Positions 1 to 15,681 of a DNA stretch of 25,067 nucleotides are shown here, in pieces; position 1 is the stretch's first letter; each line of letters opens with the position of its first letter. The position numbers and the translations under genes are program-made. The notes beneath the pieces were generated by a model, which ran no database searches, was not told where the DNA came from, and saw nothing but the letters and a program-made list of their open reading frames with translations. Source of the stretch: a virus; IMG/VR virus record IMGVR_UViG_3300033146_002945, positions 1-25,067 of that record. One strand, given 5' to 3'.

Positions 1-3000
1 AAAATGTATTTACTAAGAAATTTTTAAATCACTCTAAAATATATCTAAGATATGCGCAAATATCTCCGGATAGGTTACGCGGAATGTGCCTGTCTAACTC
101 TAATGAATACAATACTTTACGAGGTTGGATTCCTGTTGATGAACTTACAGAGGATGATTTAGTTTTAACTAAAAATGAAGAAACTAATGAATTTGAATAT
201 CAGAAACCAACTAGAATTATAAATGAGCCTTATAATGGGAATATTCATATATTTAAAAGTAAGGGATTTAAATTAGAAGTAACTCCAGAACATAGAATGC
301 ATATAAATTTTGACGTAAGGGGCGATCATAATTATGCTGATAAATCACTTCCGTTGACATGGCAAACTGACTATAGAGCTAAAAATTTATTAGATAGAAA
401 TTTTAAAATGGGGTTGGGCGATGGATTTTATAAAGGAGAATCTCCAAGTTATTTTGAACTTCCTGAGATAGCAACAAATTTAAAAGCCGATGGTACTAAA
501 TATGCCGATGGTAAAATTCGTATATATAAATCTATAAAAATTCCAATAAAAGAATTTATGACGTGGTTTGGATGGTGGTTAGCAGAGGGATGGACTGCTA
601 AAAATTCTGTGGCAATTGGCATTGCACAATCTAAAAAATCTAAACATTATAAAGAATTAAAACAATTAATAGAAAGTATATTTCCAGATGCAAGATTAGA
701 TAATGAATCTAGATGGATTTTAAATAGTAATTATAGAACATTATATGAATGGTTAAAACCATTAGGAAAAAGCTGGGAAAAATATATTCCAAGAGAGATA
801 TTAGAATATACGGATTATTTACCTGATTTATTAGATGCTCTGTATAATGCAGATAAATCTTATAGAAAAAATGCTAATTATAAAAAGAATTTAAGATTAA
901 ATACAGCATCAAAAAAATTAGCTGATTCTGTGCAAGAGGCTTGGATTAGATTAGGAAAAATAGCTTCAATTAGAACAAGAAATAGAAATTTTACAAAAAA
1001 TCCACAGGGTACTATTTCTAAAGCTAGAATCATATATACAGTAGAAGTACGTTCTAAAAATTATATGAATTTTTATTTAAACAGGGATTCATGTTCTGAG
1101 ACGGTGGAAAATACAGAATATTCAGGAAATATATATTGTGTTACGGTACCTAATGGTAATTTTGTTGTTAGAGATTCTGAAGAAAAATTACCTATAGTAA
1201 CAGGTAATAGTGTTGATAAATTATACTGGGACGAGTGCCAAGATCAGAATCCTGACAATATACCGATTGTAGAGCAGGCTATGTCAAGATCTATGGTAAA
1301 GGAATCGGTATATACAGGGACTCCTAAACGTACAAAAGGTACATTGGCTGAGCTATGGTACAATTCGACAATGTATGAATGGATCCCAAAATGTGAGCAC
1401 TCTTTACCCCCCTATTCTACGATTTTAATAAAAAATAGAGACATATCGGAATTAATATCTATGTCGGATTTTTATTTTAAATATAAAGACGTAGATTTAT
1501 TAAAAAATGATATATTTGTGTGGGATGGGGATAGTTGGACTAAAGTGGTTAATACTATTAAAATTGATAGAAAAGAAGATATTTATATTACATCAAATGG
1601 AATTAATAGTGTATATACTACTGATTATCATAAAATTCAAAATAATAAATTAGATTTTATAGAAGCTTCTAAATTAAAAGGACGTGATATTAGAACGTCT
1701 AAATATCCTAATATAAATGAAAGAACTTTAGATGTATTAACTATAACGACTAATAAAAATGATCATGTAAAGATGTGCGATCACTGTCACCAGCCGTTGG
1801 TTAGGAAAAGGGGTTATATAAAAGTCCATCGATTTAAAAATGGTGAAAAAATAAGATATTATAAATGTAAAAACTGTAATAAACATACTAGAAGAAATTT
1901 TTATGATAAGAAAACTATAGATTTAAACGGCTGGCTATTAGGCATGTGGGTTTCTGATGGGTTTATTCATGGGAATTATATCGGATGGTCTCAAAAAAGA
2001 ATTGATGTTTTAGATAAATTAAAAAAAGAATTACAAAAAATAGATTTTAATATAAGAATAGATATAGATAATTCAAAATGTTTTAATTTTAGACTATTTG
2101 ATAGTGTAGTTGCAAAATATTTTAAAGAAAATTTTGGAAATTCATTTAAAAATAAAAAATTAAGTAGTGAGATGTTAACAAAAGGTAGTATTAAATTTTT
2201 ATATAAATATTTAGCAGGATTGCTTGATGGGGATGGTACAATATCATCAAATTTAGCTTTAATTAGAATGAGCTCTCAGGAAGCTATAGAACAAGTAGGA
2301 TATATTTTAGATATATTAAATATTAGATATACTACTAATTATATAGTGAGTCAAAATTTATTTTCAATAGCATTTGAAATAGATGATAAATTAGTAAAAG
2401 AATCAGTAAAAGGTAAAAATCAATATTTTAGAAAGCGTTCTATTAAAAAAGAAATATATAAGAAAACTTTTAGTGTTGATAGTATATATGACATTACTAC
2501 CGAATCGGGGAAATTTGTAAGTGGTGGTGTTATTATTCATAATTGTGGGGAATGGAATTTTATAGATGAAAGAACTATAGGATTAACCGGTCCTATATGT
2601 AGCAAGTGTGGTGGAAGTTTAAATACTAAAAAGGGGCAATGGGTCCACACGGGCGTTAAGGGCGCTAAGGCAGTCGGGTTTAGAGTTTCATTACCAATGT
2701 TTGCGGATGCACCCTGGGTGGATTGGCAGAGAGATGTAATAGATTATAGAAAGACTCTTACTTCAGATGCAATATTTTTTAATGAAGTTTTAGGACTTGA
2801 ATATGATACAGGGGTAACTCCTGTTACCATAGCAGATTTAAAAAAGTGTTGCACAGGGGGCCCTATGGTTAAGGAACCTGATAAAACTATGTTATCCGGG
2901 CCTAATACTTTAGGGTTAGATTATGGACCTGTAAGTAGTGTTAAATCTAAGACAGTAGTTTCAATAATGCAGCGAAAAGATAATAAAACAAGAGTAATGT

Positions 3001-3470
3001 ATTTAAAAAAATATAAAGGAGCACAGGCCGATTATAGTTTCATTCATAGAGATATACCAAAGCTTTTTAATAAGTGGAATATAAAAGTAATGGGGGCAGA
3101 TGCTGGTTTGGGTGACGCTCCCAATGCAGAAATTAGAAATAGGATAGGCAATTACAATAGATTAATAGCGTTCAGATATTCCGGGTCACAGAAAGTAAAA
3201 GGAAAGTGGAATCAATTATCCAGGGAGTATACTATTAGTAGAAATATGGTTTTAAGTGATTTATTTTCAAGAATAAAAAAACAACAGATGATTTTTCCCA
3301 GGTGGGAAGATTTTGAGCCATTTGCAGACGATTTCTTAAACATGGCCGTGGAGTATGATAAAAGTTCATCTAATTATAAATTTGTAAACGATGGTCCTGA
3401 TGATTCAGTTCATTCTATTGCTTTCGGGGATTTAGCATTACAATTGTTATTAATTCATAAAGAAGCTTGA
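1..3470 (+). CDS. Terminase large subunit (left end missing), interrupted by two inteins
   Basis: This is the ATPase/nuclease motor that packages DNA into the prohead. The frame is open from base 3 with no stop, so the gene begins upstream. The ATG at 84 is not its start: it is the last extein residue before intein 1. Extein landmarks, counting from the Met at 84: 'SPDRLRG' just upstream; Walker B-like 'LYWDE' (380-384) with a 'TGTP' segment (411-414); a zinc ribbon formed by C437, C821 and a later CSKC pair; and an RNase H-like nuclease with acidic residues D946 (LGLDYG), D1006 (GADAG) and D1106/D1107 (DDSVHS). The zinc ribbon recalls GpA-type terminases. Both inteins must splice out to give the active enzyme. 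The stop codon overlaps the -35 box of the next promoter. The terminase call is firm; the subfamily is uncertain. Confidence 0.93.
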   Translation, partial: NVFTKKFLNHSKIYLRYAQISPDRLRGMCLSNSNEYNTLRGWIPVDELTEDDLVLTKNEETNEFEYQKPTRIINEPYNGNIHIFKSKGFKLEVTPEHRMHINFDVRGDHNYADKSLPLTWQTDYRAKNLLDRNFKMGLGDGFYKGESPSYFELPEIATNLKADGTKYADGKIRIYKSIKIPIKEFMTWFGWWLAEGWTAKNSVAIGIAQSKKSKHYKELKQLIESIFPDARLDNESRWILNSNYRTLYEWLKPLGKSWEKYIPREILEYTDYLPDLLDALYNADKSYRKNANYKKNLRLNTASKKLADSVQEAWIRLGKIASIRTRNRNFTKNPQGTISKARIIYTVEVRSKNYMNFYLNRDSCSETVENTEYSGNIYCVTVPNGNFVVRDSEEKLPIVTGNSVDKLYWDECQDQNPDNIPIVEQAMSRSMVKESVYTGTPKRTKGTLAELWYNSTMYEWIPKCEHSLPPYSTILIKNRDISELISMSDFYFKYKDVDLLKNDIFVWDGDSWTKVVNTIKIDRKEDIYITSNGINSVYTTDYHKIQNNKLDFIEASKLKGRDIRTSKYPNINERTLDVLTITTNKNDHVKMCDHCHQPLVRKRGYIKVHRFKNGEKIRYYKCKNCNKHTRRNFYDKKTIDLNGWLLGMWVSDGFIHGNYIGWSQKRIDVLDKLKKELQKIDFNIRIDIDNSKCFNFRLFDSVVAKYFKENFGNSFKNKKLSSEMLTKGSIKFLYKYLAGLLDGDGTISSNLALIRMSSQEAIEQVGYILDILNIRYTTNYIVSQNLFSIAFEIDDKLVKESVKGKNQYFRKRSIKKEIYKKTFSVDSIYDITTESGKFVSGGVIIHNCGEWNFIDERTIGLTGPICSKCGGSLNTKKGQWVHTGVKGAKAVGFRVSLPMFADAPWVDWQRDVIDYRKTLTSDAIFFNEVLGLEYDTGVTPVTIADLKKCCTGGPMVKEPDKTMLSGPNTLGLDYGPVSSVKSKTVVSIMQRKDNKTRVMYLKKYKGAQADYSFIHRDIPKLFNKWNIKVMGADAGLGDAPNAEIRNRIGNYNRLIAFRYSGSQKVKGKWNQLSREYTISRNMVLSDLFSRIKKQQMIFPRWEDFEPFADDFLNMAVEYDKSSSNYKFVNDGPDDSVHSIAFGDLALQLLLIHKEA
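87..1208 (+). mobile_element. Intein 1 in terminase, with a LAGLIDADG endonuclease domain
   Basis: A 374-residue in-frame protein intron. It begins with Cys (TGC at 87), has a block B 'TPEH' about 65 residues in, and ends 'YCVTVPNGNFVVR' followed by a terminal TGN before Ser+1. That ending is typical of phage terminase inteins, which often end GN rather than HN. A first LAGLIDADG-type helix is 'FGWWLAEGW' (from about base 570). The second, 'LPDLLDALYNADK', is degenerate, with Ala and Asn in place of the usual Gly/Asp pattern, so the endonuclease may be weak or dead. Splicing joins 'RLRGM' to 'SVDKLYWDE', immediately before Walker B. The DNA looks more A/T-rich than the flanking extein. Confidence 0.88.
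1401..2543 (+). mobile_element. Intein 2 in terminase, with an intact LAGLIDADG endonuclease and a zinc-ribbon insert
   Basis: A 381-residue intein that starts with Ser ('SLPPYSTIL') rather than Cys. It has a block B-like 'YTTDYH' and ends 'VSGGVIIHN' before Cys+1. Between the splicing half and the endonuclease lies a CxxC...CxxC zinc ribbon (residues 565/568 and 595/598 counted from base 84). The endonuclease carries two good LAGLIDADG helices, 'WLLGMWVSDG' (1932-1961) and 'LAGLLDGDG' (2211-2237), with both acidic residues in place, so it is probably active. The insertion sits between His439 and Cys821, inside the first zinc knuckle of the terminase. The ends are inferred from intein consensus rules. 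Confidence 0.88.
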
Positions 3471-3495
3471 CAAAAATATTTTATTAGTTTATATT
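3467..3495 (+). promoter_or_regulatory. Promoter P1, sigma70-like
   Basis: TTGACA (3467-3472), a 17-base spacer and TATATT (3490-3495). The -35 overlaps the terminase stop codon. The predicted RNA start near 3500 gives a leader of about 30 bases with a CGGAG ribosome site before the ATG at 3531. It would drive the head-core genes. Confidence 0.82.
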
Positions 3496-3530
3496 ATTAA
3501 TGACTATAAAAATTAACGGAGATAAAAAAA

Positions 3531-3824
3531 ATGAAATACTTTGAAAAAAATGCAGGTGAAGTAAGTGAGCAGTGGGGCGTTGGTATGGGGGGAGTAGGCG
3601 CTAGTATGTTGGCTCCAATAGACCCGGCAACAGCTTTACTATCGGGGGGAATTCAAGGTGGGTCTTATTTAGCTGGTAGGTTGAGACGTCCTTTAACTAA
3701 AGCAGAATTACGTCATCAAAATGCTGCCGGCCCAAGTAATATAATTTTTAATGGTTTTTTACCGCAGTATAGACTTGGTAGGAGAAACTCCACAACATCG
3801 GCAAAAATGCATAACGAGGAATAA
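3531..3824 (+). CDS. Small glycine-rich protein, probable virion component
   Basis: 97 residues, function not recognised. It begins 'MKYFEKNAG', very like the next gene ('MKYFNKEAA'), and carries an EKxA-type motif found throughout this head region. Residues about 15-50 form a glycine/alanine-rich hydrophobic stretch that could be one or two membrane-active helices; the remainder is basic. The start is set by a CGGAG site about ten bases upstream, behind promoter P1. It overlaps the next gene by one base (TAATG), so translation is likely coupled. Position between terminase and prohead protease suggests a minor head or internal protein. That role is inference. Confidence 0.7.
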   Translation: MKYFEKNAGEVSEQWGVGMGGVGASMLAPIDPATALLSGGIQGGSYLAGRLRRPLTKAELRHQNAAGPSNIIFNGFLPQYRLGRRNSTTSAKMHNEE

Positions 3825-4168
3825 TGAAATACTTTAATAAGGAAGCCGCATATTTATCTGAAGCTAAAACTCATATAAAAATTGCATCTAATTTTAATTC
3901 TACAAAAATGATAGATGTAGTATCAAAAAGAGGCGAAGAGTTAAAGAAAGCTTGGAAAGCTGCTATTACTACAGGTCAGAAAAAATCTGTAAGAGATGCA
4001 GCTGACAAATCTTTGAAACAGATGGATCACATGAAAGATATGAGTGTTAGGCGGGCAAAAACTATAAAAGATGTAGCTAAGGCAAAAATAGCTAAAAAGA
4101 ACGCTAGAACCTTGGAAGCTATACGGCCTCATATAGAGTTAGATTATAAAAATTTAGTTGGAGCATAA
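3824..4168 (+). CDS. Small lysine-rich helical protein, unknown
   Basis: 114 residues, strongly basic, almost entirely predicted helix from its Lys/Ala/Glu content and lack of Pro. The N-terminus 'MKYFNKEAAYL' repeats the start of the gene before it, and the first twelve bases ATGAAATACTTT are identical in both. The ATG overlaps the previous stop (TAATG) and is served by a CGAGGA site. No enzyme motif is visible. A head-internal or DNA-associated role is possible from its charge and location but is not shown. Confidence 0.7.
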   Translation: MKYFNKEAAYLSEAKTHIKIASNFNSTKMIDVVSKRGEELKKAWKAAITTGQKKSVRDAADKSLKQMDHMKDMSVRRAKTIKDVAKAKIAKKNARTLEAIRPHIELDYKNLVGA

Positions 4169-4169
4169 A

Positions 4170-5084
4170 ATGAATTTAGACTACCTGGCTAAAGAAGCAT
4201 CTGCTGATTACATTAATAACAATGTACCATTAAATGACAGCATAGCTAAATTAGCTGAAAATAACGCTTTGAATAGAGAGCAAATAAATAGAGTAACGGA
4301 AAGTGCAAATACATCTACGTATTTGTCACTGTTTAAAGCATCAAACGATAAATATGTAGAATTTCCAGTAGCAGACTCTGAGAAGATAGCTAGCATAATT
4401 AATTCGGAAGTGGAAGATATAGATACGTTAAGCGACTACGATATTCCACCTGATACACAATTACAAGATATGGAAATATTTCCGATTAGTGAAGGTGCTG
4501 ATACGCATGAGAAGAACGCCTCCGTTAGTGATACAGAACTTCTTAATGCAATACATAGAATGAAATATGCAGATAAATTAATTACTGAAAAGCTCGGAGA
4601 GTACAAATACTCTTTTGAAGAAGAAGCTTTTAAGTTATATAATTTTGTTAAACAAGCCGTCCTTTCAGGAGAGAGCTTTGGGCATATAAAGACTGCTATG
4701 TTGCGGCATCTTCCCGGAAATATTACAGAAAAGATAGTAAATGATTTTGAAGATAGATTAAAAAATACTGATAGAATATTTAATTTAGATACTTCTGTTA
4801 ATGAAAAAGTGGCGGAGATGTCACTTAATGAAGATTCTCCAATATTAAAACAGTTTAATAAAGTTTATAACATTACTACTGAATATGAAAATTGGCTAGA
4901 GAAGCAAGCTTCATTATTGGCTAAAAAAAGTCTTTTAAACAAGGCAGGTAAATGGGCTAAGGGGCTTGCAGCTATAGGAGTATTGGGAATAGGAGCCACT
5001 GCCGGGTATCAAGCAGGTAAATCTAAAGCATATGAAGAACAATCGGTTTTAAAAAGAAAGCCATCAAATTATACAATGAGGTAA
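4170..5084 (+). CDS. Uncharacterised head-region protein with repeated KxA motifs
   Basis: 304 residues when started at the ATG at 4170. A TTG at 4158 would extend it, but the GGAG that serves the ATG (4160-4163) lies inside that extension, so the ATG is preferred. The protein carries many short KxA motifs: 'LAKEAS' near the N-terminus, then EKIAS, EKNAS, EKVAE and 'LEKQAS'. It ends with a glycine-rich hydrophobic helix ('GLAAIGVLGIGATAG') and a basic tail. No known fold is recognised. It sits among small proteins between terminase and prohead protease, so a minor capsid or ejected internal protein is plausible. Confidence 0.72.
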   Translation: MNLDYLAKEASADYINNNVPLNDSIAKLAENNALNREQINRVTESANTSTYLSLFKASNDKYVEFPVADSEKIASIINSEVEDIDTLSDYDIPPDTQLQDMEIFPISEGADTHEKNASVSDTELLNAIHRMKYADKLITEKLGEYKYSFEEEAFKLYNFVKQAVLSGESFGHIKTAMLRHLPGNITEKIVNDFEDRLKNTDRIFNLDTSVNEKVAEMSLNEDSPILKQFNKVYNITTEYENWLEKQASLLAKKSLLNKAGKWAKGLAAIGVLGIGATAGYQAGKSKAYEEQSVLKRKPSNYTMR

Positions 5085-5086
5085 AG

Positions 5087-5554
5087 ATGAAAGATTTAGA
5101 ATTTATTAAAAAGGATGCATTTAAAAAAGAGCTGGAAAAAGTAGCCAGTAAAGGTCTTTACATGGCTCTGGGGGCAGGTTTGGCTGGGGCTGGTATTGCA
5201 GGTGAAATGGCATTGAATAAATATCAAGATAAAAAAATTGCTCAGGAATCAGGGGAGATTTTTGAAGAAATTTATAGAACTACCCCAGAGTTAAGTAAGT
5301 TCCCTAAATCAGAAGTTAAACTTTACTTCGATTCTTTGGTACATCACTCTCCAAGAGTAGCAACAGATCCCGTATCTGCTAGATCATTTTTGCTGCAAAT
5401 GCTGCCATGGAATGAAACTGGCGGAGTTCCGGTTGATAATTTTGTTAATCTTGCTAAAATTACTCAGACAAATGAGTACATGCCTTATAAAGTTAAAGCA
5501 GGAATAAATAGTGTATTAGCTGCTAATCCCCTTGCAGCGGCTAGATTAGATTAA
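5087..5554 (+). CDS. Small virion-type protein with FxxELEKVAS tag and hydrophobic helix
   Basis: 155 residues. The N-terminus contains 'AFKKELEKVASKG' (residues 12-24), one of the clearest copies of the recurring head-region tag. It is followed directly by a glycine-zipper hydrophobic segment ('GAGLAGAGIAGEMAL'). The rest is a soluble domain without recognised motifs. The start lies two bases after the previous stop with a GAGG site upstream. The order tag, then glycine zipper, then soluble part is shared in outline with neighbours. Function unknown; a head-internal or ejected protein is the best guess. Confidence 0.72.
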   Translation: MKDLEFIKKDAFKKELEKVASKGLYMALGAGLAGAGIAGEMALNKYQDKKIAQESGEIFEEIYRTTPELSKFPKSEVKLYFDSLVHHSPRVATDPVSARSFLLQMLPWNETGGVPVDNFVNLAKITQTNEYMPYKVKAGINSVLAANPLAAARLD

Positions 5555-5559
5555 TAATT

Positions 5560-7272
5560 ATGATTAAATATATAGACATATCTAGTGATGACGATGGCGT
5601 TGAAATAAGCGCCATCCATCCAGGTGTTATGATTAAAACTGCAGAGTTCGATCCAGAACTTGCAGATTTTTTATCTAGTATTAAGCCTAACTTAGGCAAA
5701 TACTATTTACATATAAATGCATTAGGAGCTGGAGAGTATTTTGGGGAAAATAGAAATGGAGATTTTTTCCCGGAAACGGCATTACTAGAATATCATAAAA
5801 CTTTTGAAACAAATGCTAACTTATATAAGCATCATCAAAATAAGCCGCATTTGGGACATAAAATATATGGGAAAGTTTTATTTTCTTTTTATAATAAAAA
5901 AATGCATAGAGTGGAATTAATAGTAGAATTTGATACTGCTACCGCTCCTGAAATTAAAGAGAGAATAGACTCGGGAGAAAATTTAGCTTTCAGTATGGGG
6001 GCTAAATTAAAATATGACGAATGTTCTATTTGTGGTAATAAAGCCAAAAATTTAAATGAATATTGTGATCATTTAAAATATCAAATGAGGCGAACATTAG
6101 CAGATGGCAGGAAAGTATCTGCTATAAATAGACATCCAAAGTTTTTTGATATTTCTTTCGTAACAATACCAGCAGACAGGACTGCTTATATGTTTTCTAA
6201 AGTAGCCTCTGTTAAGGAGGATGGGGAAATAGAAGAAAAAGAATTAGATGTTTTAATGAAAAGTGCCGAGGAAGATTCTATTAAGAAAGCTGAAATAGAG
6301 AAAGTAATTCCCGGTGGAAATTTGGAGGGATATTCAGAAGATCCTAAGGGATTAATTTATAATTCTCAACCAAAGATGTCTAGTTCATTAATGGATGATT
6401 TATTAAAATTTAAATTAAATAAAGTATTATCTACTTTAGCAGCTTTACATATTATGCCTACTAAAAGAGACTTTCAGACATTAGTATTAAAGTCTTCTAA
6501 TATGGGCGGTCTAGCAGATAAATTAAATGATAGGAATTTAGTATTTGCTACGCCAAGAGATGTAAAACCTGTATACGTAGATGATGTAAATACAAATCCA
6601 TGTAATGACGTATTAGAAGTTTTTAGGAATCATGATAACTATTTAAGCCGGGCTCCCCTAACAAAACCTGTAATAAGTATAAGAATTTTAGAGAAGCAGG
6701 CGGAGATGGGGAGAGGAAATGATTTTCAAGAAGGTAGTGAGATGGAACAGTTGGGATTACTATCTGAAGTAGAAGTTGATAAGAATTTAACTTTAACAGG
6801 CGTTAAAAATCCTTTAGTACCCTTATCCGGGATAGCAGGTTTGTATTATGCACAATCCAGGATGTCAAACATGTATAAAGATGCTGAAGGCTTAAAAGCA
6901 TTAATGTTAAATAAGCCTTGGCTATTACCACTTTTTGTAGGGGGGGCTTCTTTAGCTACTATAGTGAGTCAACAATATATGAATAAGACAGCAGGCGCCG
7001 GGCCGGGAATTTTAGCAAGTTCTATGATATCCGTACCTTTAACTTATTTGTATTCTGGCAGACAGGAAAGTAAAGTTAGAAAAGGGGAGCCTATAAGTTT
7101 TTATGGAGATACTGTAAGAAAACATCCTTTTATTATGGGCATAACTCACGGAGTTTTGGCCAGTAAAGCTTTAAATTTAATGGCTAAAACAGCTTCAATA
7201 TCACAGGCATATTTAGAATTACCGGAAAATAAATTTGATGAAATTTATAATACAATTATAGGAATGTCATAG
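5560..7272 (+). CDS. Probable prohead (head maturation) protease with C-terminal extension
   Basis: 570 residues. The first 210 or so match the pattern of herpes-assemblin-fold prohead serine proteases: a His-rich segment 'LYKHHQNKPHLGHKIYG' (candidate catalytic His91/92), a Ser in 'LAFSMGAKL' (Ser145), and the strand 'DISFVTIPADRTAY' (197-210), equivalent to the usual 'SLVTxPANP'. A CxxC...CxxH zinc-knuckle-like insert (C155, C158, C169, H171) follows the Ser. The C-terminal 350 residues are unassigned, with KxA motifs ('LEKQAE', 'NKTAG', 'AKTAS') and a glycine-rich hydrophobic region near 450-500. It would cleave scaffold and capsid proteins during maturation. There is no clear ribosome site upstream, so coupling to the previous gene is likely. 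Confidence 0.8.
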   Translation: MIKYIDISSDDDGVEISAIHPGVMIKTAEFDPELADFLSSIKPNLGKYYLHINALGAGEYFGENRNGDFFPETALLEYHKTFETNANLYKHHQNKPHLGHKIYGKVLFSFYNKKMHRVELIVEFDTATAPEIKERIDSGENLAFSMGAKLKYDECSICGNKAKNLNEYCDHLKYQMRRTLADGRKVSAINRHPKFFDISFVTIPADRTAYMFSKVASVKEDGEIEEKELDVLMKSAEEDSIKKAEIEKVIPGGNLEGYSEDPKGLIYNSQPKMSSSLMDDLLKFKLNKVLSTLAALHIMPTKRDFQTLVLKSSNMGGLADKLNDRNLVFATPRDVKPVYVDDVNTNPCNDVLEVFRNHDNYLSRAPLTKPVISIRILEKQAEMGRGNDFQEGSEMEQLGLLSEVEVDKNLTLTGVKNPLVPLSGIAGLYYAQSRMSNMYKDAEGLKALMLNKPWLLPLFVGGASLATIVSQQYMNKTAGAGPGILASSMISVPLTYLYSGRQESKVRKGEPISFYGDTVRKHPFIMGITHGVLASKALNLMAKTASISQAYLELPENKFDEIYNTIIGMS

Positions 7273-7287
7273 TAGCAAAAAATAAAT

Positions 7288-7316
7288 TTGACAAAAAAAT
7301 AAACATTGTTTATATT
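7288..7316 (+). promoter_or_regulatory. Promoter P2, sigma70-like
   Basis: TTGACA (7288-7293), a 17-base spacer and TATATT (7311-7316) lie in the 86-base gap before the gene at 7359. The leader contains a strong CGGAGGT site (7344-7350). It probably drives the scaffold-like, decoration and capsid genes up to the terminator at 11194. Confidence 0.85.
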
Positions 7317-7358
7317 TAACTTACATTGATTAGAAAATTATAACGGAGGTAACAATTA

Positions 7359-7868
7359 ATGGGAACATTTAATTTAGACGCTTATTTAGGCGAATTGGAA
7401 AAAACAGCAGGGGCTGATGTTAAAGTTGTCCCGGAAAATGTTGATAATTCCGAAAGAGAAAAAGTAGCGGCAGCTGTAGAAGAAGGCCAAATAATGGCTC
7501 ATGCTTTCATGGCTGAACTTGAAAAAGTTGCAGTAGGAGATAGTCCTATACCTTTAGATACCGCTTCTGTAAAAGGTAAAGATGAAATTAACCACGTAGC
7601 TACAACTAACATTAAGCAAGACGAAGTAAATAAAGTTAATGCTATTTTATCACAACTTACTGGTCCGGTAAAAGCTGGTGTTGGTGAAATTGCTACACCC
7701 GCAGGTGTTGTTGACGTACCAGCGAGACCACCGGTAGATGAACAACCTCTTCCAGCTGATGCTATGAAACAGCAGGAACAGCAGGCCGCCGCTGTAGTCG
7801 AAATGAATAAAGCAGCCGCTTCCGACATTCTTACAAATTTATATAATCGTTATTTCGGGGAGGAATAA
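7359..7868 (+). CDS. Scaffold-like acidic protein with two ELEK(T/V)A tags
   Basis: 169 residues, acidic and Ala/Val-rich, with no enzyme motif. It carries two clear tags: 'AYLGELEKTAG' (8-18) and 'AFMAELEKVAVG' (49-60). The second sits in a segment ('EEGQIMAHAFMAEL') that also occurs in the next two genes. The C-terminal half is Pro/Gln/Ala-rich and probably flexible. A strong ribosome site behind promoter P2, and position upstream of the capsid gene, suggest an abundant scaffold or head-core protein that the prohead protease would process. The name is inferred from context, not homology. Confidence 0.75.
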   Translation: MGTFNLDAYLGELEKTAGADVKVVPENVDNSEREKVAAAVEEGQIMAHAFMAELEKVAVGDSPIPLDTASVKGKDEINHVATTNIKQDEVNKVNAILSQLTGPVKAGVGEIATPAGVVDVPARPPVDEQPLPADAMKQQEQQAAAVVEMNKAAASDILTNLYNRYFGEE

Positions 7869-7870
7869 TA

Positions 7871-8149
7871 ATGTCTTTAATTAATACATACAATGAAATG
7901 GTAAAAGAAGCAGAAGTTGATGAGTCTGTAAACGAAAGAGTAGAAATTTTAGAAAAATACGCCTCCGCCGCTGAAGAAATGTTAGACGCGGAATACGGTG
8001 AAAATTATGATGCTAATGATGTACAAAAATTAGCCGCAGCTTTGATTGATCGCGATTTGGAAGCTGAAGAGGATTATGAAAAAATAGCGGAGTTAGATAC
8101 TGCTGGCCGAATTATGGCTAGAGCATTTATCGACGAATTAGAAGGTTAA
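7871..8149 (+). CDS. Small acidic helical protein, paralogue of the next gene's N-terminus
   Basis: 92 residues, highly acidic and helical. Residues 26-92 align along their length with residues 7-71 of the protein at 8160: both have 'LEKYAS', then a YG..Y segment, a 'DV.KLA' segment and 'LID.D', then KIA/RVA, 'AG.I.AR.F' and DEL. The protein ends at 'ARAFIDELEG', exactly where the paralogue continues into KIAG, so it resembles a stand-alone version of a tag domain. A GGGGAGG site precedes the ATG. Likely a scaffold or core protein; no biochemical function can be read. Confidence 0.72.
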   Translation: MSLINTYNEMVKEAEVDESVNERVEILEKYASAAEEMLDAEYGENYDANDVQKLAAALIDRDLEAEEDYEKIAELDTAGRIMARAFIDELEG

Positions 8150-8159
8150 GGGGGTAATA

Positions 8160-9098
8160 GTGCATAATGCTGAAATAGAATACTTAGAAAAGTATGCCAG
8201 TTATGCGGATCAACTTCTTGCCGAAGCTTATGGAACTGATTATAGTGTAGATGATGTAGAAAAACTTGCAGAATCTTTAATTGATCTTGATATGGAAAAA
8301 GTTGCTGAAATGGAACGTGTCGCGGAAATCGTAGAGGCTGGACAAATACAAGCTCGCGGTTTTGCTGATGAATTAATTAAAATTGCCGGTCAAAACTTTT
8401 TTGAAAAAGTTGCATTAACGCGTATGGGTAAAATTTTGCTAAGTGGCGGTGCTAAAGATATTAAAGATGCTGCCAAAATTATGAAAAAACATGGCAGAAA
8501 TGTTAGCCCAAAATCGTTAAAAAAATATTTTAATGAAGCCAAGGCCGCTGGCAATGTAAATAAAAGTGTAGCAAAAAAAGGTGTTAAGGGGTCCTCTGGA
8601 GTTATAAGCAAAGCTAGAGTTAAAAAAGAAAAATTAGTGAAGGGCTATAACAAGGCTGAAGGTAAATTAAAACCTGGTGAGGAATTTTATCAGAAAAAAG
8701 TATATAAATCTGTAGATTTAAAGAAAAACGGTAAGCCAAAGATGAGAGCTAAAGCCGTATCTAGGGGCGAACGTATAGGTAACTTAAAAAATAGTAAAGC
8801 TGGGCAGCAATTAGAAAGAAATAGATCTGCAAGCAAGGCTGATCAATTTAGAAAAGAGGATGCCTATAATTATTCTAAAAAGAACGGTACTGATTTTTCT
8901 TCTTCTTCTTCTTCTTCTTCTTTTAAAAATTCTACAAATTCCAAAAAGCAAGAAGGTAAATATAATTTTGACAGTTTTAAAAAAGATGTCAAAGGTAATT
9001 GGGCAAATTCTAAGAGTTTCGCTAAAAAGAATCCATGGGCAGTTGGAGCTGGCGTAGGCGCCGCGGGTGCAGGTGGATATGCTCTCAATTCTAAATAA
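8160..9098 (+). CDS. Head-region protein: acidic tag domain plus long basic C-terminus
   Basis: 312 residues from a GTG start, chosen because AAGGGGG (8148-8154) sits just upstream. Residues 1-77 are an acidic helical domain paralogous to the preceding gene, ending 'ARGFADELIKIAG'. Residues 80-290 are strongly basic and Lys/Ser-rich, suggesting nucleic-acid contact. A run of eight Ser (TCT codons, 8898-8921) is encoded by a microsatellite. The last 25 residues are a Gly/Ala-rich hydrophobic segment ('AVGAGVGAAGAGGYAL'). The acidic-then-basic design would suit an internal protein that loses its N-terminal domain by proteolysis and then binds DNA. That is inference. Confidence 0.75.
   Translation: MHNAEIEYLEKYASYADQLLAEAYGTDYSVDDVEKLAESLIDLDMEKVAEMERVAEIVEAGQIQARGFADELIKIAGQNFFEKVALTRMGKILLSGGAKDIKDAAKIMKKHGRNVSPKSLKKYFNEAKAAGNVNKSVAKKGVKGSSGVISKARVKKEKLVKGYNKAEGKLKPGEEFYQKKVYKSVDLKKNGKPKMRAKAVSRGERIGNLKNSKAGQQLERNRSASKADQFRKEDAYNYSKKNGTDFSSSSSSSSFKNSTNSKKQEGKYNFDSFKKDVKGNWANSKSFAKKNPWAVGAGVGAAGAGGYALNSK
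8897..8920 (+). repeat. (TTC)8 trinucleotide microsatellite
   Basis: Eight perfect TTC units in a coding region, read in frame as eight consecutive TCT serine codons. Slippage by whole units keeps the frame, so only the length of the serine linker would vary. Confidence 0.95.
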
Positions 9099-9112
9099 AT
9101 AGAAAGATTAAA

Positions 9113-9607
9113 ATGCTATCAATAAATGACATATTAAATGATAACTATGGAGTCGAAGAGCCAGAAAATTCGCCTGATAGCCCTCAATTTAGCGTATCTG
9201 ATTTAGAAAAAACTTCAGAGTTTTTGAAAGAGTTAGAACTTATCGAAGATGAAATAAAGGGCTTAGTTAAAACAGCCTGGGAAGCCGGCAGAAGTGGTAT
9301 AGAGAAAGAAGCAGGAATGATTTCTAATGCCCTTGCCAAAGGTAAAGCTAGAAAAGCTCTAAGAACTGCAGAAACTCATTTATCCGTAGCAGAAGCTATG
9401 GGAGAAGTAAAGAAAATTGAAGAGAAAGCTTTAAGAATTAGAGAAGGTAAAGGTGGAGGAATTCATCCCGCAATCTTAGGAATGGCTGGAGGAGCAGCGG
9501 TAGCTGGGCCTATTGCGTATAATATGGCTACTGAAAAGAAAAAACAAGAATTAAGTGAAGTAGCTAAAAAGTATTATCAGGCTGGGAGGAATAGTGAAAC
9601 TGGATAA
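9113..9607 (+). CDS. Helical head-region protein with LEKT/FLKELE tag
   Basis: 164 residues. After an acidic, Pro-containing N-terminus comes 'LEKTSEFLKELELIEDE', a variant of the head-region tag with Ser in place of the usual Ala. Then come 'LVKTAWEAG' and 'IEKEAGM'. The middle is a basic helix and the end carries a glycine-rich hydrophobic stretch ('AILGMAGGAAVAGPIAY'). The ribosome site is weak. The 3' end overlaps the next gene by 14 bases. It has the same ingredients as its neighbours (tag, helix, glycine zipper), so it is probably another internal head protein. Specific function unknown. Confidence 0.72.
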   Translation: MLSINDILNDNYGVEEPENSPDSPQFSVSDLEKTSEFLKELELIEDEIKGLVKTAWEAGRSGIEKEAGMISNALAKGKARKALRTAETHLSVAEAMGEVKKIEEKALRIREGKGGGIHPAILGMAGGAAVAGPIAYNMATEKKKQELSEVAKKYYQAGRNSETG

Positions 9608-9941
9608 AGACTTATATAAAACTGCAGAAGACCATTATAATTTTCTGCTAAGCAATTATAAAGATACATTAAATTCCAAAGAGATAGAAAAATTAGCTTT
9701 TGCAGTAGTAACGAAAATGGCAGAAGTTGGTACAATTTCTACTCCCGAGGAAGCAATAGAAAAAATAGCTGAATATAGAGAGAAGGGCCTGGAAGATTTA
9801 AAAATAATCGAAAAGGCTATTGATCTAGGTCCTGTGGTAAAGACTGCTGAACATGAAAGCGTTAAGCTGGGTTCGCTATCTGATTCTCCATCCGGAGATG
9901 GCCAGGACAATTTAACTAGTTTTTTACTCGAAGATATTTAA
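9594..9941 (+). CDS. Small helical head-region protein, distant paralogue
   Basis: 115 residues from a GTG at 9594, supported by GGGAGGA (9584-9590) and a 14-base overlap with the previous gene. The sequence 'LYKTAEDHYNFLLSNYKD' followed by 'EIEKLAF' matches, at low identity, the LEKYAS...KLA layout of the proteins at 7871 and 8160. KxA motifs recur through its length (KLAF, KMAE, KIAE, KTAE). The C-terminus is acidic and Ser/Gly-rich. Immediately upstream of the decoration and capsid genes, it is a candidate scaffold protein. The paralogy is a by-eye alignment and moderately supported. Confidence 0.7.
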   Translation: MKLDKDLYKTAEDHYNFLLSNYKDTLNSKEIEKLAFAVVTKMAEVGTISTPEEAIEKIAEYREKGLEDLKIIEKAIDLGPVVKTAEHESVKLGSLSDSPSGDGQDNLTSFLLEDI

Positions 9942-9960
9942 TTAAAAAGGAGTTAACTGA

Positions 9961-10413
9961 ATGTTTAAAATTATTTCAGATTTAAACCTGTGTGAGCGAG
10001 TAACTAGAGAGTATAATGGCACCTTGAGTGCTACTGCAACATCCGGAACGTGGGTAACTCTTAACGCGAGTGGGGAATTTGCGGCAACTGGTAGTACTGC
10101 TACTGGCCTGTCTTTTCCTATCTGGTCTGAGGGTAACCGGGACGGATCTGCTGGATTTACTCCCGATGTGGAAGCTACAGGTAAAATTACTGTTCTTAAT
10201 GGTAAATTTAGAGCGGTAACTGATCAAGTAGCTGCTACGTATGTTAGTGCAGGAATTGCTGTAGGGGATGCTTTAGTAAGTAAAGCAGGAGAATTGACGA
10301 AGATGACTGCTGGAGAAGAAGCTGCTGTCGTGGGCTATGTAAGCGCCGATTTAGGATCTGTTGAGCACGTAGGTGTAACATTTACTGATTGTATAGAAAT
10401 TTATTCTAAATAA
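9961..10413 (+). CDS. Probable capsid decoration (cement) protein
   Basis: 150 residues, Ala/Thr/Gly/Val-rich, predicted mostly beta. The C-terminal half has the pattern 'GIAVGDALVSKAG...' then a VVGYV strand, which resembles small capsid-stabilising proteins encoded directly before major capsid genes in many phages. A good ribosome site (AAGGAG, 9947-9952) and a more G/C-rich codon choice suggest high expression. It likely binds the outside of the expanded capsid. A head-fibre base is the main alternative. The assignment rests on gene order and composition, not on a diagnostic motif. Confidence 0.62.
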   Translation: MFKIISDLNLCERVTREYNGTLSATATSGTWVTLNASGEFAATGSTATGLSFPIWSEGNRDGSAGFTPDVEATGKITVLNGKFRAVTDQVAATYVSAGIAVGDALVSKAGELTKMTAGEEAAVVGYVSADLGSVEHVGVTFTDCIEIYSK

Positions 10414-10430
10414 AAGGGAGTAATTATATT

Positions 10431-10898
10431 ATGGCAGATGTACCTGCAAGTGTAGTAAATCAATTATTCGTGGAGAAATTGGATAATTCTGATGGCCGTG
10501 AAAAAATCGCCTCCGAGGGTGCGCAGTTTATTCGTACCAAACTTAGAGAAGTTTCTTTTGCACGCAAAATTCTTCAACCACAGTACGTAACAAAAGCCGA
10601 TCTTCAGAGATCTTTGAATCATGATGGATTGGTAAAAATAGTAGACATCGAGCCGGATTCGGCAGCGATGGCAATTAACTTTCGTGGCGCAGCTGATACT
10701 CGTTATGTTGAAGGCGAGCGTTATGAAATACCGTTTTTCATGATTTCGTCTGACGATTTTCAGAAAACGGAGCAAGAGCTGTTAGCCTATGAAATGCCTA
10801 TTACAGACGTTATTGACCGTAATAGCGTTAAAGATATTCAGGCAGTAGAAGATGGTGCGTTTATATTTGGTATTGTGGGAAGCTACCAGTGCTGGTGA
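10431..10898 (+). CDS. Major capsid protein, N-terminal fragment (reading frame broken)
   Basis: 155 residues, of which about the first 145 look like the N-arm and start of an HK97-fold capsid protein: 'GAQFIRTKLREVSFARKIL', then 'RYEIPFF' and 'DRNSVKDIQAVEDGAFI'. After that the frame runs into an unrelated tail and a TGA at 10896. The remaining capsid sequence resumes in the +1 frame. Arg codons are mostly CGT/CGC (7 of 9), unlike most of the window, which fits a highly expressed gene. AAGGGAG (10414-10420) precedes the ATG. An EKIAS motif near residue 24 resembles the head-region motif. A real gene, but apparently damaged or misassembled here. Confidence 0.78.
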   Translation: MADVPASVVNQLFVEKLDNSDGREKIASEGAQFIRTKLREVSFARKILQPQYVTKADLQRSLNHDGLVKIVDIEPDSAAMAINFRGAADTRYVEGERYEIPFFMISSDDFQKTEQELLAYEMPITDVIDRNSVKDIQAVEDGAFIFGIVGSYQCW

Positions 10899-11169
10899 CG
10901 CGATTGCCGGGGAATTAATTATTAATGGGTATACATATACTTCTTTGTTTGGTAAAAAATTAATTGTAACTAATAAAAAAGAATATGTACCTCGCGGAAC
11001 TATCTACGGATTTGCCGCTCAAGAATATCTTGGTAATTCCTATATCATGGAAGACACCAAATTCTGGATAGATAAGAAAAAGAATGTCATAACCTGGTCT
11101 GCTTATGAGACTATTGGTATGGGTATTGGTAATATTAAAGCTGTTGCCAAGGTTACCTGGACTGCTTAA
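10852..11169 (+). CDS. Major capsid protein, C-terminal fragment in +1 frame
   Basis: The frame is open from 10852, but capsid-like sequence probably starts near 10879 ('EATSAGDAIAGE'). It has typical features of an HK97-fold C-terminus: 'GYTYTSLFGKKLI', then VPRGTIYGFA, 'EYLGNSYIMEDTKFWI' and 'AYETIGMGIGNIKAV'. No ribosome site serves the ATG at 10852, which lies inside the upstream fragment. The two pieces together give only about 245 residues, short for this fold, so a stretch of the middle appears to be missing as well as the frame being shifted. Terminator T1 follows. Confidence 0.75.
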   Translation: MVRLYLVLWEATSAGDAIAGELIINGYTYTSLFGKKLIVTNKKEYVPRGTIYGFAAQEYLGNSYIMEDTKFWIDKKKNVITWSAYETIGMGIGNIKAVAKVTWTA

Positions 11170-12390: not shown

Positions 12391-12749
12391 TGGGAACAAA
12401 ATCAAAAAAAGTTACACAGGAAACTTTGGAGAGTAATTCTCCAGATAGTAAATTCTTAAAAGAATTAGACCTACTTAAGTTAGAGTTAGAGAATGAGCGA
12501 AGAACTACCGCTAGGCTGCGTTGGGAAAAAGCAAGGCTAGAAGTTCAAATACAGCAGTTAGTGGCTAAAGTTCAAGCTTATAAAGTTAGTGAGGAGTCTC
12601 GAAGAGCTAAAGAAGTTGAATCTCAATATAGAGGCGCCGTTAGTCGTTATAAGGATCTCGCTAAAGATATCGCAAAGTCTTATAAAATAAAAGAAGACGA
12701 ATGGGGATTTGATCCCGACAATGGTGAGATTATTTTTAATGAAAAATAA
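12390..12749 (+). CDS. Coiled-coil protein, probable assembly or structural role
   Basis: 119 residues, mostly one long predicted coiled coil (about 20-90) rich in Glu, Arg and Leu. It includes 'FLKELDLLKLELE', which resembles the FxxELE tag of the head-core proteins but lacks KxA. The C-terminus ends 'WGFDPDNGEIIFNEK'. The ATG overlaps the previous stop (TAATG), so translation is coupled. No enzyme motif. It could be a chaperone or scaffold for the fibre proteins that follow. Function is not known. Confidence 0.65.
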   Translation: MGTKSKKVTQETLESNSPDSKFLKELDLLKLELENERRTTARLRWEKARLEVQIQQLVAKVQAYKVSEESRRAKEVESQYRGAVSRYKDLAKDIAKSYKIKEDEWGFDPDNGEIIFNEK

Positions 12750-12783
12750 TAATAATTAACTTTAACAAAGGAAGGTAATTTAA

Positions 12784-13896
12784 ATGGCAGATCAACGAAT
12801 TGTGTTTGTAAATGCTGATGCCGATATTGAGGAATTAGATGGGTTAGTGGCTAATGATGCCAACGGCCTATTATCCTATGATAGTCATCCGGCTTTCTCC
12901 ACAGATACGGAGATTATAGATAAAAAGTATGTGGATGACGCAGTAGCGGCAACGGGAACCGCCGCGGAGTGGCAGGATTCCGCTATAGATATTCTATTAG
13001 CACCTCCGGGGACTCCAAATTCCGGTGATAGATATTTGATTGACGGTGTAGGAACTGGAACATGGAGCGGTCACAATAATGACATCGCAGAGTGGGATGG
13101 CAGTGCGTGGCAGTATACAACTCCAACTACGGGAACTTATATTTCTGTAGATGATGAGACAGACGGCTTGTATTATTATAATGGTACATCGTGGACTAAA
13201 CACATGTACGAATCTACTACTGCATCTCTTGGTGTAGAAAAAGTAGGCGTAGATATTAGATTAGACATGTTGGCCGCAGGCGGATTAAAACTTACGGGTA
13301 ATGAAGTAGGCGTAGAGCCTGATGATTTTGCTGGAGAGGGTATCGTAGACGATGGATCAGATAATTTAGCTATTGACTGGTCAACCGCATTTAACGATGC
13401 TAAAGCAGTAAAAGCTTCAGATTTATCTTCTAATTCTAACGCCCTTGGAGCTTCAATAATTGGTATCGAAGATGCCGGTGCATATACAACTGAAACAGAT
13501 GTTGAGGGAGCCCTCCAAGAAATTTACGGTCTTATGGATAGTACTGTAGGTGGATCTATTTACACTGCCGGGTCTGGTGGGGTAAGTAAAGGTGATTTAG
13601 TTTATATCTCTAGCGCCAATACAGTAGCTAAAATACCAATTAATGCAGCACATGTAGCAATAGGTGTGGCTGAAGATGCTGCGGCTTCTGGAGTAGACGT
13701 AAAAGTTAGCGCTAACGATAATATTATTACTGGAGTTTTAACTGGCGGAGTTGCCGGAACCAAATATTTTTGGAACGGAACCGGTTGGACTAATACCATG
13801 TCTGCCGTCTCTGGAAATTATGTATGGCTTGGCGGAGTAGCTAAAAATGCTACAGATGTTCATGTCGAAGTAGCATTTATTAAACGTAACCGTTAA
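12784..13896 (+). CDS. Fibre protein with DUF2793-like domain (probable head fibre)
   Basis: 370 residues, behind a strong ribosome site (AAAGGAAGG, 12767-12775). The N-terminus 'MADQRIVFVNADADIEE' is shared with the next gene. Residues about 58-135 fit a DUF2793-like module seen in phage fibres ('GDRYLIDG', 'WSGHNNDIAEWDGSAW', 'YYYNGTSW'). A middle section ends 'TDVEGALQEIYGLM', and residues about 255-368 are a beta domain related to those at 11582 and 15682. It is probably a trimeric surface fibre that adheres to host or environmental glycans. Location between capsid and neck genes favours head attachment. Terminator T3 follows. Confidence 0.75.
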   Translation: MADQRIVFVNADADIEELDGLVANDANGLLSYDSHPAFSTDTEIIDKKYVDDAVAATGTAAEWQDSAIDILLAPPGTPNSGDRYLIDGVGTGTWSGHNNDIAEWDGSAWQYTTPTTGTYISVDDETDGLYYYNGTSWTKHMYESTTASLGVEKVGVDIRLDMLAAGGLKLTGNEVGVEPDDFAGEGIVDDGSDNLAIDWSTAFNDAKAVKASDLSSNSNALGASIIGIEDAGAYTTETDVEGALQEIYGLMDSTVGGSIYTAGSGGVSKGDLVYISSANTVAKIPINAAHVAIGVAEDAAASGVDVKVSANDNIITGVLTGGVAGTKYFWNGTGWTNTMSAVSGNYVWLGGVAKNATDVHVEVAFIKRNR

Positions 13897-13923
13897 AACA
13901 GTTATAACAACTAAGGTTTTAAC

Positions 13924-13960
13924 AGGCCCCTCTAGTTAATGTCTGGTGGGGCCTTTTTTT
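13924..13960 (+). terminator. Terminator T3 after the first fibre gene
   Basis: Stem AGGCCCC (13924-13930) pairs with GGGGCCT (13948-13954) across a 17-base loop, then a run of T. No promoter is visible between it and the next ATG, so it may be partial and set a step-down in expression. Confidence 0.88.
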
Positions 13961-13979
13961 ATTAAAAGGAAAAAAAATA

Positions 13980-15680
13980 ATGGCAGACAAACAGAAATTG
14001 TTATACGTTAATACTGATGCCGATTATGAGGAAACATTTGTCCACGGAGGCTCTATATTTATTGTAGATGTACAGCCAGTGTCCGGCGGAGATAATGTTG
14101 ATCTTACATATTTATCTGGAACTATTCCTAATAATCATGTAGTGGATACTGTTACTTCTGATACTGATGATATGATAGTATATGTTGAGTTTGATGGCCC
14201 CGGGTATGGGTTTACCGGGACAGCTACCGTAAATAATATTACGGTTACCAATATACAGCCATTAGGCACACATACGAGAAGATATTCCGGCCAAGCTACC
14301 ATAGATATAGGATCAGATACCTCAATTTTAGCGGAGCATTCGGAGGGGCATACTCATGAAGTAACTTATGACTCTTATCCGGAAGGCCCTAAAATAACAT
14401 TAATTAAATTTATTAATGGATATCCGGGATCACAAACAGAAGTAAAATCTGGCGATACGTTTGATATAGAAGTGACTTTTGATTCAGCCGAAACCGAGCC
14501 CTCGCAATTAGATATAGAAAATTACGGAGCCTCTACTGCAGCATCATTTAATAGTACTCAACTAGCTTCTGGCGGATTAGACTGGAGTGGTGGTACTTAT
14601 AAAACTTCTCTCACTATTACAATAGCAAATAGGGGAACTTCTACTCAATATTTACCTCTTAGGGGTAAAGCTAAAAATTCAAATAATACTTATGGTGATA
14701 CAGTAGCTACTAATGCTTCTGGAGGAACTACTGATGGGCAACACGTAGTAAAGTTAAATAATACTTACCCATCTATCAGTTTTGGAGCTAAAACATATCC
14801 TGCTAGCCAAAGCGCTTTAAAAAACACAGAATCAGCTACAATAGGATTTACTTATTCTAATACTGATACTATTCAATTTAGTTCACCAATATCTGAATTA
14901 TCAATAACCAACCCAACTAGCTTAGCTTCTACTAAGACAGTTACTAGAACCGGCGGTACCTATAATATATCGACAAATAATTTAAGAGCCGCGGGAAATA
15001 GGACAGCTAACAATGCTTCTACCACTATCAATACTATTATTTACATAGCACATGTAGCGGCTACTATTACTGTAACGGAACCATATACTAGATTGAGATC
15101 TAGCTCTTCCGGTACTAATTATACAATAACTATTAATTCAAATCAACGTTTAAGAATAGTTCCTACTATGACAGCTCCGGAAGGTACTTTGGGAACCTTT
15201 AGTGGAAGCGTACCTGGAACAACATTTACGGCTAGTTTAAATGTATCTGACTCTGATACAAATGGTACATATACCTGGGGTAGTTTATCCGCAAGAAACT
15301 TAGCTAATATAGAAACTACTTCTATATCTGGGGACGATCAATATACAATTGGAGGATTTATAAAACGAAGATTAACAGTATCAGCGTATTCGGCTGAAGT
15401 TAGTATAGGGACTTATGTTTCAGATACGACTAAATTGGTCTGTACTAACTTATCTGAAGGAGATGAGAACTCTGAAAACTTTTCTTATCAATCTTACAGT
15501 AATGATACTACATTAGATCCTAATAATACTACCGGAGTTAATATAAATGATAAGTATACAATTACAGATCCATCTAATAATACTGATAATCATGGTAATA
15601 TTTGGTTTAATTTAGATAGACCTAATAGGGCTGGCAATACTACTGGTACTATGCAAATTGATATAGAAGAGGAGGTATAG
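13980..15680 (+). CDS. Large beta-rich virion fibre/Ig-like protein
   Basis: 566 residues, Ser/Thr/Asn/Gly-rich with alternating hydrophobic residues and no catalytic motif. The N-terminus 'MADKQKLLYVNTDADYEE' is paralogous to the previous fibre. Then come several probable Ig-like or jelly-roll beta modules, for example 'GPKITLIKFING' with 'VKSGDTFDIEVTF' (about 136-170). The last residues are acidic (EEEV), and their codons also supply the AGAGGAGGT ribosome site of the next gene. The start is served by AAAAGGA (13964-13970). It is likely a virion surface appendage attached through the shared N-terminal peptide. A neck whisker is an alternative. Confidence 0.7.
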   Translation: MADKQKLLYVNTDADYEETFVHGGSIFIVDVQPVSGGDNVDLTYLSGTIPNNHVVDTVTSDTDDMIVYVEFDGPGYGFTGTATVNNITVTNIQPLGTHTRRYSGQATIDIGSDTSILAEHSEGHTHEVTYDSYPEGPKITLIKFINGYPGSQTEVKSGDTFDIEVTFDSAETEPSQLDIENYGASTAASFNSTQLASGGLDWSGGTYKTSLTITIANRGTSTQYLPLRGKAKNSNNTYGDTVATNASGGTTDGQHVVKLNNTYPSISFGAKTYPASQSALKNTESATIGFTYSNTDTIQFSSPISELSITNPTSLASTKTVTRTGGTYNISTNNLRAAGNRTANNASTTINTIIYIAHVAATITVTEPYTRLRSSSSGTNYTITINSNQRLRIVPTMTAPEGTLGTFSGSVPGTTFTASLNVSDSDTNGTYTWGSLSARNLANIETTSISGDDQYTIGGFIKRRLTVSAYSAEVSIGTYVSDTTKLVCTNLSEGDENSENFSYQSYSNDTTLDPNNTTGVNINDKYTITDPSNNTDNHGNIWFNLDRPNRAGNTTGTMQIDIEEEV

Positions 15681-15681
15681 T

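Follow-up and report, generated by a model that had tools for sequence, protein, structure and literature searches.

A K-x-A motif as the predicted cleavage site of the prohead protease in a group of large tailed phages

The head proteins encoded on a 25,067-nucleotide viral sequence (IMG/VR record IMGVR_UViG_3300033146_002945, positions 1 to 25,067, hereafter the window) carry a recurrent motif, [L/M/F/I]-x-K-x-A with S, E or A preferred next, which is very probably the recognition and cleavage site of the prohead protease encoded at 5560-7272, the cut being made after the Ala. The occurrence of K-x-A at domain boundaries, its avoidance in the parts of proteins that would be retained and its conservation support a cleavage motif, and these sequence patterns are less well explained by composition or by a binding motif that stays uncleaved. 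K-x-A would represent a new specificity within prohead proteolysis, a known system that depends on a serine protease of the HK97/herpes-like type. A literature search returned no report of K-x-A prohead cleavage and no Arash proteome paper.

Distribution of the motif in the window

The ten head genes between 3531 and 9941 (2096 aa) contain 34 copies of [LIVMFY]xKxA where 6.2 are expected (s.d. 2.3), the expectation being derived from 500 shuffles of the same proteins with composition kept, none of which exceeded 15 copies. When S, E or G was required after the Ala, 25 copies were found against 1.5 expected, and the highest shuffle reached 7. This shuffle count, proposed with the original prediction, bears out the enrichment claimed there. 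The arrangement of the three residues is specific as well, since the spacing of a hydrophobic residue, a Lys two positions later and an Ala two positions after that accounts for the 34 copies, and the runner-up among the 24 spacings tried gave 16. Of the 50 K-x-A encoded by the head genes, 16 have no hydrophobic residue ahead of them, and perhaps not all of these 16 are sites.

Each of the ten head proteins holds between 1 and 7 copies. The original prediction had extended this range to nearly every protein up to the capsid gene, which stands for these ten but not for the gene directly before the capsid gene (9961-10413, a probable decoration protein), in which there is no copy. In the other 6028 aa of the window the motif is at background (6 copies, 7.5 expected): the terminase ORF has 3 copies, a chance level, and the fibre, zinc-ribbon and ligase genes have none or one each, in agreement with the view that they essentially lack it. 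The motif had also been described as belonging mainly to head-core proteins, and the background level elsewhere is in line with this, apart from a second carrier in the tail region, outside the 3531-10898 interval. This gene (23753-24517) has two copies within its first 20 residues, in the N-terminal sites LIKYAS and LEKTAG. The D181 gene in a position like that of 23753-24517 begins MDNVDTLLEKIAAK. An example peptide sequence for a K-x-A site is NLDAYLGELEKTAGADVK.

All the carriers lie on the plus strand. The small head-region protein at 3531-3824 has one N-terminal site (FEKNAG, residues 4-9), and so has the small basic head-region protein at 3824-4168 (FNKEAA), whose predicted mature part has a charge of +13. 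Several sites and a short basic C-terminus characterize the acidic core or scaffold candidate at 4158-5084, to which similar proteins occur in related loci; the ATG start of this gene may be 4170. The head protein at 5087-5554 bears IKKDAF and LEKVAS in its first 20 residues, ahead of a Gly/Ala-rich segment. Acidic scaffold candidates are encoded at 7359-7868 (3 sites), 7871-8149 (a small protein of 92 aa with 4 sites) and 9594-9941 (115 aa, 5 sites). The probable internal protein at 8160-9098 has 5 sites in its first 85 residues, and the product of 9113-9607 consists of a predicted acidic propeptide, in which A55 and A67 are the last residues of the sites, and a basic remainder.

Predicted fragments were obtained by cutting the window proteins in silico after each motif. 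Those of genes 7359, 7871 and 9594 are small, mostly acidic peptides, which resemble scaffold to be cleared, and those of gene 4158 are much alike, with a 57-residue basic end left. Genes 8160, 9113 and 23753 lose short propeptides in this digest and leave basic remainders of 227 aa (net charge +39), 97 aa (+7) and 235 aa (+24), respectively, which appear suited to staying with the DNA.

The protease, the capsid protein and their relatives

In the window the protease gene (5560-7272, 570 aa) has the terminase ORF on one side and the capsid gene on the other, and in D181, Arash and related loci the capsid gene likewise follows the protease gene at a distance of a few genes. The window protein matches phrog_18299 (head maturation protease) with an E value of 2.1e-9, as do all 44 aligned relatives (best E 2.5e-15 in PHROGs). 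Residues H92, S145 and D197 are invariant in the 44 protease sequences; phage G has a Glu at the D197 position, and by analogy D197 would be the third catalytic residue. With the PF04586 (Peptidase_S78) and TIGR01543 models, weak matches arose in 3 and 4 of the 44 relatives, at E values no better than 0.022 and 0.0072, respectively. The window protease itself had no significant match in Pfam and NCBIfam, these two models included, and no match in the PDB. On the basis of the PHROGs matches, the invariant H92, S145 and D197 and the weak S78 matches, we call it a putative prohead serine protease with an HK97-like His/Ser/acid layout.

The catalytic core of the protease spans approximately residues 29-216 and is followed by a C-terminal part of about 350 residues that carries further sites, as the original prediction had noticed for the C-terminal half. 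Both edges of the core are marked by the motif, with K26-T27-A28 (MIKTA/E, 5635-5643, the slash marking the predicted cut) on the N-terminal flank and K214-V215-A216 (FSKVA/S, 6199-6207) on the C-terminal flank. The K and A of the former and the complete K-V-A of the latter are identical in the window, D181, Arash and phage G. More widely, of 49 scorable proteases 48 have a KxA on the N side, and 47 have one on the C side no more than 25 residues from the core. Within the core, K-x-A was found 18 times against 43.6 expected, and the reversed A-x-K 28 times against 43.3, a milder depletion.

The major capsid protein gene (10431-11169), assigned by profile and alignment to the D181, Arash and L042 capsid proteins and by phrog_2522 (major head protein), is broken in the contig into two ORFs (10431-10898 and 10852-11169), and 179 nt are missing relative to L042 at 10864/10865. 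Its putative propeptide site is K25-I26-A27 (REKIA/S, 10503-10511), with Ser28 as the predicted mature N-terminus. The EKIAS originally seen near residue 24 therefore fits K-x-A but leaves the hydrophobic position unmatched, because K25-I26-A27-S28 is preceded by R23-E24. All 52 distinct capsid proteins examined have K-x-A in their N-arm, and a count in 51 proteins gave 51 KxA in the N-arm compared with 11.4 expected; after clustering at 60% identity the motif was found in 16 of 16 clusters, where 4.1 are expected. The capsid body contains 15 K-x-A against 67.4 expected, and 49 reversed A-x-K against 66.8, which again are less depleted. The proteins fall into groups that differ in the spacing between the site and a conserved F-x-R block, at 8 residues (28 proteins) or 9 residues (23 proteins), and the site is kept despite this shift.

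Because the motif was derived from the window itself, it was tested on independent sequence. Relatives of the protease are found in Vibrio phages D69, D148 and D181, Salmonella phage Arash and Bacillus phage G, and more distant ones in mycobacteriophages and others. In the complete genomes of D181 and Arash the motif is confined to six proteins each, which in each genome hold 41 motifs; most of the six are encoded next to the protease, and each phage has in addition one distal gene, about 285 aa long, with 8 to 9 copies. The remaining ORFs are at background (D181, 269 ORFs, 74 copies against 74.2 expected; Arash, 247 ORFs, 64 against 75.0), which indicates that the motif belongs to a defined protein set and not to the genome at large.

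Used as a single query sequence, the window protease found no matches in IMG/VR. A four-sequence protease alignment used as a profile matched 254 stretches, of which 80 loci were taken; removal of duplicates left 59 distinct loci, with the window, D181, Arash and phage G counted in. The phages bearing the motif, called K-x-A phages hereafter, are a family of large tailed phages. Across the 59 loci the ratio of observed to expected motifs was 4.8 for the protease, 5.7 for the genes between protease and capsid and 4.5 for the four upstream genes, against 1.1 for downstream ORFs and 0.96 for ORFs on the opposite strand. In an unbiased scan of the 510 head proteins of these loci, which covered residue pairs with gaps from 1 to 8, K-(2)-A ranks first (2415 observed, 1085 expected); it is this rank that is informative, as the z-values of the scan are inflated by the relatedness of the proteins. 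The wider preference in the head proteins of related loci reads [L/M/F/I], E/Q/V/T, K, Q/V/T/E/I, A, S/E/A. In the Mycobacterium and Rhodococcus relatives (I3, E3) the capsid N-arms and proteases showed no clear K-x-A code.

Evidence for cleavage and alternative readings

The capsid protein of the distantly related phage G, the one relative for which a mature N-terminus was found, has 282 residues and a mature form of 255, as determined by N-terminal sequencing (PMC5646251, Table 1). From these lengths the cut should lie between A27 and Q28. In a sequence alignment this A27 faces A27 of the window capsid protein. The residues before the phage G cut are V-A-L-A, with an Ala and not a Lys two residues ahead of A27, so that the comparison supports the position and the Ala of the window site but not its Lys. 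As a control we counted the established L/I-x-E cleavage site of T4, which is dense in the scaffold protein gp22 (16 against 5.8 expected), the protease gp21 (7 against 2.6) and gp68 (5 against 2.0); in gp17, gp18 and gp19 its count is close to background. A genuine prohead code can thus be expected to be dense in both the scaffold and the protease, and the K-x-A enrichment exceeds that of L/I-x-E in T4. A code of the T4 or phiKZ type in the K-x-A phages was rejected, as L/I-x-E (1.15x), A-x-E (1.08x) and S/A/G-x-E (0.98x) are all close to expectation in the 510 head proteins. The lack of enrichment of L/I-x-E and A-x-E points to a distinct specificity, as first proposed. The motif is also conserved: in orthologue pairs of 25-70% identity, with the protease excluded, its K and A are kept at 0.60 and 0.66, the corresponding values for the remaining K and A residues being 0.34 and 0.40. 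Taken with the N-arm and core-flank positions and the depletion in the capsid body, this conservation, the phage G N-terminus and the T4 control support the earlier idea that cleavage after Ala would destroy the scaffold while the shell is kept.

K, E and A are abundant in head-core proteins, in which E-E periodicities are enriched too, and this would suit an artefact of composition or of coiled coils in Lys- and Ala-rich helical proteins. The shuffles preserve composition, however, and the 2-2 spacing alone stands out; moreover, the reversed A-x-K is unenriched in the same segments. In the 510 head proteins hxKxA occurs at 4.94x expectation, whereas its neighbours hxRxA (1.23x), hxKxS (1.08x) and hxKxG (0.82x) are at background. 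We consider such an artefact extremely improbable, and the shuffle, spacing and reversed-motif controls rule it out. A docking or assembly motif that is left uncleaved, through which scaffold, protease and cargo would bind one another or the inner shell while the true cleavage sites lie elsewhere, accounts for the abundance of the motif in acidic scaffold-like proteins and for its copies near cargo N-termini, reminiscent of a capsid-targeting sequence. The depletion of Pro and Gly around the motif in the 510 head proteins would fit a helical binding motif too. Yet a binding motif needs no avoidance in the capsid body and the protease core, where K-x-A is depleted. The capsid copy moreover coincides with the maturation cut of phage G, the motif stands on either side of the protease core, and the true cleavage motif of T4 has the same distribution, all of which makes uncleaved docking improbable.

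Possibly, though we incline against it, the motif serves two roles, as the end of a short capsid-targeting peptide that is recognized by the core and later cut off there by the protease, comparable to the targeting sequence of T4 internal proteins. Such a role, which would add to the cleavage explanation and not replace it, is suggested by several small proteins whose sole site falls within the first 10-20 residues, and by the 20-residue propeptide of SPN3US gp45, a length comparable to that of T4 targeting sequences (PMC5694885); the scaffold proteins with multiple sites, on the other hand, need no targeting.

In the favoured reading, that of a cleavage site, the protease, the scaffold proteins and the cargo proteins would co-assemble within the shell, and the protease would cut itself at A28 and A216 to release a 188-residue core. 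The scaffold proteins would be cut at many sites into small acidic peptides able to leave, the capsid protein would be trimmed by 27 residues, and the basic internal proteins would lose their N-terminal propeptides and then stay with the DNA. That the motif is cut in the K-x-A phages, at which exact bond, and what becomes of each fragment are points that we infer.

Implications and comparison with known systems

We tentatively suggest, as one possibility, that a large and mostly uncultured phage lineage uses a single code, [L/M/F/I]-x-K-x-A followed by S/E/A after the cut, to destroy the scaffold, trim the capsid protein, release the protease and remove cargo propeptides, that the herpesvirus-like Ala cut is a retained or convergent specificity within a shared protease ancestry, and that genomes give a direct reading of all the head substrates. 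K-x-A would provide a testable cleavage code for a widespread lineage, judging from the 254 matching IMG/VR stretches, whose head proteins are nearly all unannotated. With this code scaffold, internal and ejected proteins would become recognizable from sequence, and mature N-termini predictable. Such a prohead specificity would be unlike the cut after Glu of T4 and the giant phages and would have the Ala cut in common with phage G and the herpesviruses, which bears on how related proteases shift their specificity together with dozens of substrate sites.

Bacillus phage G (gp19 protease, gp27 capsid) resembles the window in its homologous protease, which has the same Cys/His insertion and K-x-A on both core flanks. 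Its capsid protein loses 27 residues by a cut after Ala, but at a site that differs from that of the window in having no Lys. Unlike in the window, the neighbouring head genes show no general enrichment of the motif: in the first 300 kb of phage G the protease alone is clearly rich in it, and hydrophobic-x-K-x-A is found in the first 14 residues of 16 scattered ORFs where 6.1 are expected.

With HK97-type proteases (Peptidase_S78, PF04586/TIGR01543) the window protease has in common the His/Ser/acid layout, and it contains an F-D-I-S-x-V-x-x-P-A block, which we take to resemble the S78 signature. It differs from them in a C-x2-C...C-x-H insertion and in its long C-terminal part with cut sites.

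The T4 gp21 and phiKZ/SPN3US proteases follow a common logic with that proposed here, namely self-cleavage, scaffold destruction, trimming of the capsid protein, removal of propeptides from internal proteins, and a motif that is dense in scaffold and protease. They cut after L/I-x-E and S/A/G-x-E, whereas the residue before the predicted cut in the window is Ala, with Lys two before it, and not Glu; Glu precedes the cut for each of the proteases of T4, phiKZ, 201phi2-1 and SPN3US (PMC5694885).

The link of the window protease to the herpesviruses is drawn solely from the common ancestry of prohead and herpes proteases reported in the literature. Herpesvirus assemblin, whose catalytic domain is freed from a scaffold-like tail, has, to our knowledge, no requirement for a Lys two residues before the Ala. 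It cuts after Ala with Ser next, like the predicted window site, and a cytomegalovirus protease substrate contains ...Asn-Ala-Ser... (PMC12632753).

K-x-A carriers outside the head module

In the complete-genome relatives Vibrio phage D181 and Salmonella phage Arash, the proposed hydrophobic-x-K-x-A cleavage site also occurs in a distal gene (36179-37030 of L002, the D181 stretch; Arash 174466-175335) whose product of about 285 aa carries 8-9 sites in each phage. Searches of PHROG and Pfam with the D181 protein returned no match, and this gene probably encodes an additional core or scaffold protein. Two minus-strand genes distant from the head module (D181 53338-54141 and Arash 58195-58971) encode proteins of comparable sizes in which a K-x-A site at the protein start is followed by basic Ala/Gly-rich sequence, and we regard these proteins as candidates for additional cargo. 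In the first 300 kb of the more distant relative Bacillus phage G, 16 ORFs have hydrophobic-x-K-x-A within their first 14 residues (6.1 expected), several copies taking the form MKRLxKKA.

Other genes of the window and its relatives

In D181 (L002:10248-13268 and 13907-15736) and Arash (3252-7829 and 12600-14420 of its stretch, L003), the region immediately upstream of the head core genes carries RNA polymerase beta/beta'-like genes, which possibly encode a virion RNA polymerase. The large terminase ORF of the window (3-3470) contains two LAGLIDADG_3 stretches and an intein splicing domain match slightly below the cut-off; it appears to harbor two inteins. Within the tail gene region, 21342-22673 encodes a LigD-type 3'-phosphoesterase domain fused to a DNA ligase OB domain. 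The capsid gene (10431-11169) is disrupted at 10864/10865, where 179 nt present in the related locus L042 are absent and the frame changes. This gap probably reflects an assembly collapse, but it could be a genuine defect.

A Cys/His insertion in the protease

The head maturation protease (5560-7272) has a conserved C-x2-C...C-x-H insertion at residues 155-171, after the catalytic Ser and before the last catalytic block. The insertion looks like a zinc knuckle. It is common to the window phage, phage G and the Rhodococcus/Mycobacterium relatives E3 and I3, and could mark the lineage of this protease.
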